A stretch of 64,000 nucleotides of DNA, taken from Taylorella equigenitalis ATCC 35865 (GTDB lineage: Bacteria; Pseudomonadota; Gammaproteobacteria; Burkholderiales; Burkholderiaceae_B). Under the pieces are notes generated by a model, which saw only the letters and a program-made list of their open reading frames with translations, had not been told where the DNA came from and did no database searches. Below, piece after piece: positions 25,244 through 26,025 of this stretch. Location of the stretch: positions 558,001-622,000 of the forward strand of contig NC_018108.1 of the NCBI RefSeq assembly GCF_000276685.1, written 5' to 3'. The position numbers and the translations under genes were made by a program. The stretch's first letter is position 1. Each line of letters opens with the position of its first letter.

Positions 25244-25756
25244 ATGCACAAACGCAATACTAGAAAAAAATCTTATTTTTATTTTACCTTAATAGTAATG
25301 TCACTCATTACTATATGGTCCTTTATAAAATTTGGTAAAACATCTGCAGATGTAGCTATACAGAACATAGACTCTTGCGAAGTTGTTATACCCGAATGGA
25401 TTAAAGCTAATCTTAAAAACAATTTAGATTCCAATCAAGTAATTGAAATTGTGCGTAATCTTGATGAAGAAGGAACATTGCCAAACTACTATGTAACTAA
25501 AAGAGAGGCTAGAGCTTTGGGTTGGACTCCAGGTCGTGCATTCAATGAAATCGAGAATTTAAAAGGTAAATCTATAGGAGGGGATCATTTTGGAGACTTC
25601 GAAAAACGCTTACCAAGAGGGCGTTGGAAAGAAGCTGATCTTGAGTATAAAGGGGAAAAGAGAAATGCAAAACGTATTTTATTTAACAATAATGGTCGTA
25701 AATTTGTGACCATTGACCATTATGAGACTTTTGTAGAGGTTCCAAAATGCAAATAA
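25244..25756 (+). CDS. Barnase-family ribonuclease with N-terminal membrane/signal segment
   Basis: A 170-residue guanyl-specific RNase of the barnase (N1/T1) family. Residues 66-167 align with barnase: LPNYYVTKREARALGW, GKSIGGDHFGD, KEADLEY, RNAKRILF, DHYETF. All catalytic residues are kept: E130 (barnase E73), R140 (R83), R144 (R87) and H159 (H102). Residues 11-28 are hydrophobic after a basic start, so it is exported or membrane anchored. The next gene encodes a barstar and overlaps it by 10 bases, which protects the cytoplasm. It could serve in nutrient scavenging or competition. Confidence 0.88.
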   Translation: MHKRNTRKKSYFYFTLIVMSLITIWSFIKFGKTSADVAIQNIDSCEVVIPEWIKANLKNNLDSNQVIEIVRNLDEEGTLPNYYVTKREARALGWTPGRAFNEIENLKGKSIGGDHFGDFEKRLPRGRWKEADLEYKGEKRNAKRILFNNNGRKFVTIDHYETFVEVPKCK

Positions 25757-26025
25757 AAAAATGTGATCTAACAGGTATCAAAAGCACTGAGGAAGCTTAT
25801 ACAAGGTTTACGGATGCATTTAAATTGCCTTCTTGTGTTGGTAGGAACCTTGATGCCTTATATGATGTTTTGAGCACTGAGGTAGAAGGACCATTGGAGA
25901 TAATTTGGTCTGATTTAGATGGCAGTGCAACTAGTATGAGTTGGGATACAATCAATTCTATGTTAGAAGTGTTTAGATGCGTAGAAAACGACAGGGACGA
26001 TTTAAATTTGAGGATTTCGGAATAA
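25747..26025 (+). CDS. Barstar-family ribonuclease inhibitor
   Basis: A 92-residue cytoplasmic inhibitor. The barnase-binding helix CVGRNLDALYDVL keeps D36 and D40 (barstar D35 and D39), with Y39 in place of W38. The segment MLEVFRCVENDRDDLNLRI matches the last barstar helix and strand. It overlaps the barnase-like gene by 10 bases, the order that keeps enzyme and inhibitor cotranslated. Confidence 0.9.
   Translation: MQIKKCDLTGIKSTEEAYTRFTDAFKLPSCVGRNLDALYDVLSTEVEGPLEIIWSDLDGSATSMSWDTINSMLEVFRCVENDRDDLNLRISE

Follow-up and report, generated by a model that had tools for sequence, protein, structure and literature searches.

A barnase-family ribonuclease with a predicted export signal and its overlapping barstar gene in Taylorella equigenitalis

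The single 1.73-Mb chromosome of the horse-associated bacterium Taylorella equigenitalis ATCC 35865 harbors, within the 64,000-nucleotide window analyzed here (NC_018108.1, positions 558,001 to 622,000), a gene for a barnase-family ribonuclease (RNase) of 170 aa (25244..25756, + strand) and directly behind it a gene for a barstar of 92 aa (25747..26025, + strand), whose open reading frames (ORFs) share 10 bases. This barnase/barstar pair is an ordinary representative of a known type, to which a modest amount of new detail is added here. We consider it probable that it represents a vertically inherited pair of the Burkholderiales, in which a Sec-type exported RNase acts in the periplasm and the barstar serves as cytoplasmic safeguard. 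Barnase and barstar form a textbook pair that is chiefly known from Bacillus; the widespread Gram-negative subfamily described below, with its natural paired contact changes, offers ready variants for enzyme-inhibitor co-evolution and raises the question of the role of a barnase in the periplasm.

The identification of both proteins in an earlier sequence-only reading of this DNA is borne out by the two ORFs and by Pfam matches above the curated cut-offs. The RNase matches Ribonuclease PF00545 of the N1/T1 RNases (5e-10, residues 76-166) with 40.2 bits at a cut-off of 24, and the inhibitor matches Barstar PF01337 (5e-17) with 62.1 bits at a cut-off of 23.4. Sequence searches in PDB led from the RNase to barnase (2.5e-18) and from the inhibitor to barstar (1.2e-6). 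The AlphaFold2 model of the RNase, which was built from 18 relatives, reached a mean predicted local distance difference test score (pLDDT) of 89 and a predicted template modelling score (pTM) of 0.73, and was placed on barnase by Foldseek with an E value of 7e-11, a probability of 1.00 and about 37-40% identity, the TM score on the barnase chain being mostly 0.81-0.87. According to sequence and model, the protein comprises an N-terminal signal or anchor (about residues 1-28), an additional helix (45-57) ahead of the barnase core that had previously been overlooked, and the barnase domain (63-168). An intact homologous pair is found at the syntenic position in T. asinigenitalis (RNase 66%, barstar 57% identical), and each of the 7 genomes assigned to the GTDB genus encodes the RNase; the pair is therefore real and chance can be excluded.

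Residue conservation was analyzed among 54 non-redundant RNase relatives and 53 barstars or pairs. The residues K86, E130, R140, R144 and H159, which correspond to K27, E73, R83, R87 and H102 of barnase, are identical in all 54 relatives; the last four are the catalytic residues that had correctly been named in the earlier reading. With regard to a possible guanyl preference of the enzyme, E120, the equivalent of barnase E60, is also invariant, and the equivalent of R59 varies. On the side of the inhibitor, D36 (barstar D35) is present in 53/53 and D40 (D39) in 52/53 relatives, and Y39 replaces W38 (Y in 25, W in 17 and F in 7 of the 53), in agreement with the earlier statement that both Asp residues are kept and Tyr stands for Trp. 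Not recognized before were the exchanges of barnase R59 to F119 and of barstar E76 to C78 in the Taylorella pair. The E76-R59 contact, a trait of the Bacillus pair that does not define the family, is thus absent in Taylorella.

The RNase begins with a KR-rich n-region (residues 3-9) that is followed by a hydrophobic segment (about residues 10-28), and the stretch 25244..25348 (+ strand) is predicted from its sequence and from canonical signals in relatives to encode a signal peptide or signal anchor. According to a simple hydropathy/[AVS]xA rule, which is biased towards finding a signal because start codons were partly picked for a good one, a strongly hydrophobic stretch precedes the RNase domain in 53/54 members and an [AVS]xA site lies behind it in 45/54. 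The only member without hydrophobic start (L095) is interrupted by an internal stop. In this locus, from genome G168, the stop is a TAG near the RNase N-terminus, and the barstar is intact. The aligned cleavage site (cut marked by a slash) reads IWS/F (24-26) in T. equigenitalis versus VWA/F or ALA/F in close relatives, whose signals are plainly cleavable, and TSA/D (33-35) is a further weak candidate, such that cleavage might occur after S26 or A35. Hence, the earlier description of the RNase as membrane-anchored or exported is supported by a predicted export signal in its own sequence and in 53/54 relatives; with these weak sites, the signal may be either cleaved or kept as an anchor.

Two conserved cysteines, which had also been overlooked, fit to an extracytoplasmic location. 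C45 (codon 25376..25378, + strand) is found in 53/54 relatives, the exception being truncated by a stop, and C169 (codon 25748..25750, + strand, within the overlap with the barstar start) in 54/54. C45 is the first residue of the extra helix and C169 the penultimate residue of the RNase; therefore, a disulfide could tie the N-terminal extension to the C-terminus. DsbB and DsbA-family proteins are present in Taylorella. Collectively, this suggests a C45-C169 disulfide and an oxidised periplasmic fold. A lipoprotein was rejected by inspection, the conserved N-terminal cysteine standing outside any lipobox. It might be argued that the hydrophobic N-terminus is incidental and that the RNase works inside the cell under stress as part of a toxin-antitoxin system, which would be in line with two overlapping genes and a cytoplasmic barstar. 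However, this is hardly credible given that 53/54 members carry a signal sequence and that the two cysteines are conserved; moreover, the barstar consists of a single small domain without DNA-binding part (Pfam), and no PADLOC match was obtained.

In the proposed model, the RNase would be synthesized with its Sec-type N-terminus, pass the inner membrane and fold in the periplasm, where the cysteine pair could form the disulfide and the enzyme would cut RNA reaching this compartment; if the signal stays uncleaved in Taylorella, it would work at the periplasmic surface of the inner membrane. The barstar, which has no signal peptide, would block RNase molecules that fold too early, ahead of their export, or are not exported at all, and translation of both genes may be coupled. 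The least certain step is the purpose, which might be RNA scavenging or the clearing of incoming RNA instead of that of a dedicated weapon; the RNase is a candidate housekeeping envelope enzyme for Taylorella and not an evident virulence factor. Hebert et al. (2012; PMC3250509) count a type II system among those of Taylorella, but in their text it is Sec, Tat and signal peptidases that are mentioned. The secretin GspD of a type II secretion system was not found above cut-off in the genome, the only secretin-like match having 123 bits versus a cut-off of 351, and there is no evident route for release of the RNase across the outer membrane. The 170-aa protein is composed of signal and RNase domain only, hence the former notion that no delivery domain or repeat is attached was correct. 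Since neither a GspD-type secretin nor a delivery domain or repeats were found, periplasmic action combined with a cytoplasmic barstar safeguard appears most likely.

The same features bear on a possible role in interbacterial competition, in which the RNase is released or passed to neighbours and the barstar shields the cytoplasm of kin. Barnase toxin tips with barstar immunity are described for polymorphic systems in passages of PMC3482391, and one locus (L075:1073-2473, - strand, genome G048) encodes a large protein resembling polymorphic toxins, with a barnase at its C-terminus, and a barstar-like gene comes next. Moreover, both genes of the Taylorella pair belong to the faster-changing ones among 44 window genes compared between the two Taylorella species, the barstar having the third and the RNase the fifth lowest identity. 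The toxin tips of contact-dependent inhibition (CDI) and polymorphic toxins share the catalytic domain and the immunity family with the Taylorella pair, but the Taylorella RNase has its own signal sequence and neither repeats nor a large carrier. Since in addition the pair is single copy, vertically inherited and situated at a stable locus without plasmid or phage match, we regard a competition toxin as unlikely.

The known electrostatic contacts connect barnase K27, R59, R83 and R87 with barstar D35, D39 and E76 (PMC8837141). The equivalents of K27, R83 and R87 are kept in the Taylorella RNase. Across the 53 pairs, RNase position 119 is occupied by R, Y, H, F or L, and barstar position 78 is acidic (D/E) in 35 of them, namely in 26/30 pairs with R119, in 8/14 with Y or H, but in 1/9 with F or L. 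When R/Y/H were grouped against F/L, a division set after inspection of the first dozen pairs, the acidic residue was present in 34/44 versus 1/9 (Fisher p 4e-4, raw). This association persisted after thinning to 70, 60, 55 and 50% identity (p 0.0009, 0.001, 0.004 and 0.002, respectively) and was lost at 45%, where 8 pairs remained. In a tree built without columns 119 and 78, three of the six changes per site share a branch. On the basis of this co-variation we argue that RNase and barstar still bind each other; the alignments provide moderate evidence that cognate partners use the canonical interface and co-adapt. It is a tentative and rather doubtful extension that a distinct Burkholderiales clade of disulfide-tied, oxidation-gated periplasmic barnases exists, in which paired changes have rewired the R59-E76 hot spot (to F119/C78 in Taylorella), with the result that the barstar of one cognate pair may no longer inhibit the RNase of another.

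Some observations weigh against the proposed exported RNase with its cytoplasmic safeguard. First, the T. equigenitalis RNase is devoid of a canonical AxA motif and its hydrophobic stretch is long, because of which the signal may be retained as membrane anchor instead of being cleaved; the RNase domain would point into the periplasm in either case. Second, positions 119 and 78 were selected because of what was already known about them; a blind scan of 12,056 column pairs puts them no higher than rank 652 and would thus not have revealed them. Third, barstar is located downstream of the RNase in 53/54 members and overlaps it in 49 of those (nearest-start rule), but genome G020 of the same family contains an intact RNase that immediately adjoins tRNA-Met without an intervening barstar, and two other barstar matches elsewhere in the genome. 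Adjacency and overlap are therefore not obligatory. This lone RNase and the position of the RNase as first gene weaken the earlier suggestion that the cell is safeguarded by the overlapping gene order.

Compared with the pair of Bacillus amyloliquefaciens, the Taylorella proteins share the RNase fold, the equivalents of K27/E73/R83/R87/H102, a predicted signal-directed export and an intracellular barstar with D35/D39, whereas they differ by the Gram-negative host, the extra N-terminal helix, the conserved Cys45/Cys169, the replacement of the R59-E76 contact by F119/C78 and the overlap of the genes. The pair fits exactly to the simple barnase-barstar gene pairs in passages of Zhang et al. (2012; PMC3482391), i.e. 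a stand-alone RNase followed by barstar without polymorphism; these passages do not single out the cysteine-bearing Burkholderiales subfamily. PF00545 matches were found in 116/300 Burkholderiales genomes, with a second, separate PF00545 group being common in the order (e.g. L021-L050). Like the subfamily of the window, this group has a hydrophobic N-terminus, and a barstar match lies close behind the gene at 30/30 best-scoring loci (by coordinates), yet it matches the subfamily with only 17-35 bits and mostly lacks the cysteine pair. Hence, a stand-alone barnase with hydrophobic N-terminus plus barstar is normal in Burkholderiales.

With a profile of 18 relatives, the subfamily was detected in 49/399 sampled Burkholderiales genomes from 22/159 genera, mostly with genome sizes of 2-6 Mb, and in just one other among 369 genomes sampled from the class. 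Judged from these matches, the pair is not specific to Taylorella, and a special tie to host restriction, as previously drawn, is not supported. This distribution also bears on the idea that the RNase is secreted by a genital pathogen and directed against its host. T. equigenitalis inhabits mucosa and barnase-type RNases reportedly affect animal cells in vitro, but the same pair exists in many other genera and in T. asinigenitalis, regarded as non-pathogenic (PMC3995319), and no outer-membrane route was found; we consider such a function very improbable. The dN/dS ratios (nonsynonymous to synonymous substitution rates) between the two Taylorella species of about 0.20 for the RNase and 0.29 for the barstar, which are rough only because dS exceeds 1, are a rough sign of purifying selection on both genes. 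We found no paper on this RNase in the Taylorella literature.

The chromosomal surroundings are likewise conserved. T. asinigenitalis and two further genus members (L002, L003 and L004) retain the two genes upstream of the pair, one for a glutamate-synthase-domain protein and one, on the opposite strand, for a small membrane protein; L005 keeps the former and L008 from another genus the latter. A mobile element or phage origin was rejected in view of these neighbours and the missing plasmid or phage matches, and a defence system was rejected as no PADLOC match was obtained. The small protein with a single transmembrane segment (24784..25235, - strand), included for context only, is 76% identical in T. 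asinigenitalis. Its start and that of the RNase gene are 8 bases apart in Taylorella and about 180 in L003 and L004; therefore, the promoters of both Taylorella genes must sit inside coding sequence. A promoter scan gave 7 sites versus 4.2 +/- 2.2 in shuffles, a result that was not used, and no terminator was found alongside.

Additional barstars were observed apart from the pair. Two barstar matches occur in each of the nine family genomes checked, and the second barstar of about 160 aa has no RNase alongside where this was checked (G000:C1:1458861-1459145, - strand, in L061; L057, L052 and L059); its neighbour in L061, L057 and L052 is an rsmE-like gene. One of the two other barstar matches in G020, a PF01337 domain, forms an in-frame fusion with a full-length MnmA tRNA-thiouridylase (L068:229-1812, - strand). 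Downstream of the pair, the window contains a tRNA-Met gene (cat; 26106..26182, + strand). T. asinigenitalis and L003 have this tRNA gene behind their pairs as well, and G020 has it behind its lone RNase. The gap between the barstar gene and the following ABC-F gene amounts to 366 bases including tRNA-Met in the window versus about 3.7 kb in T. asinigenitalis (L128:8359-12098).
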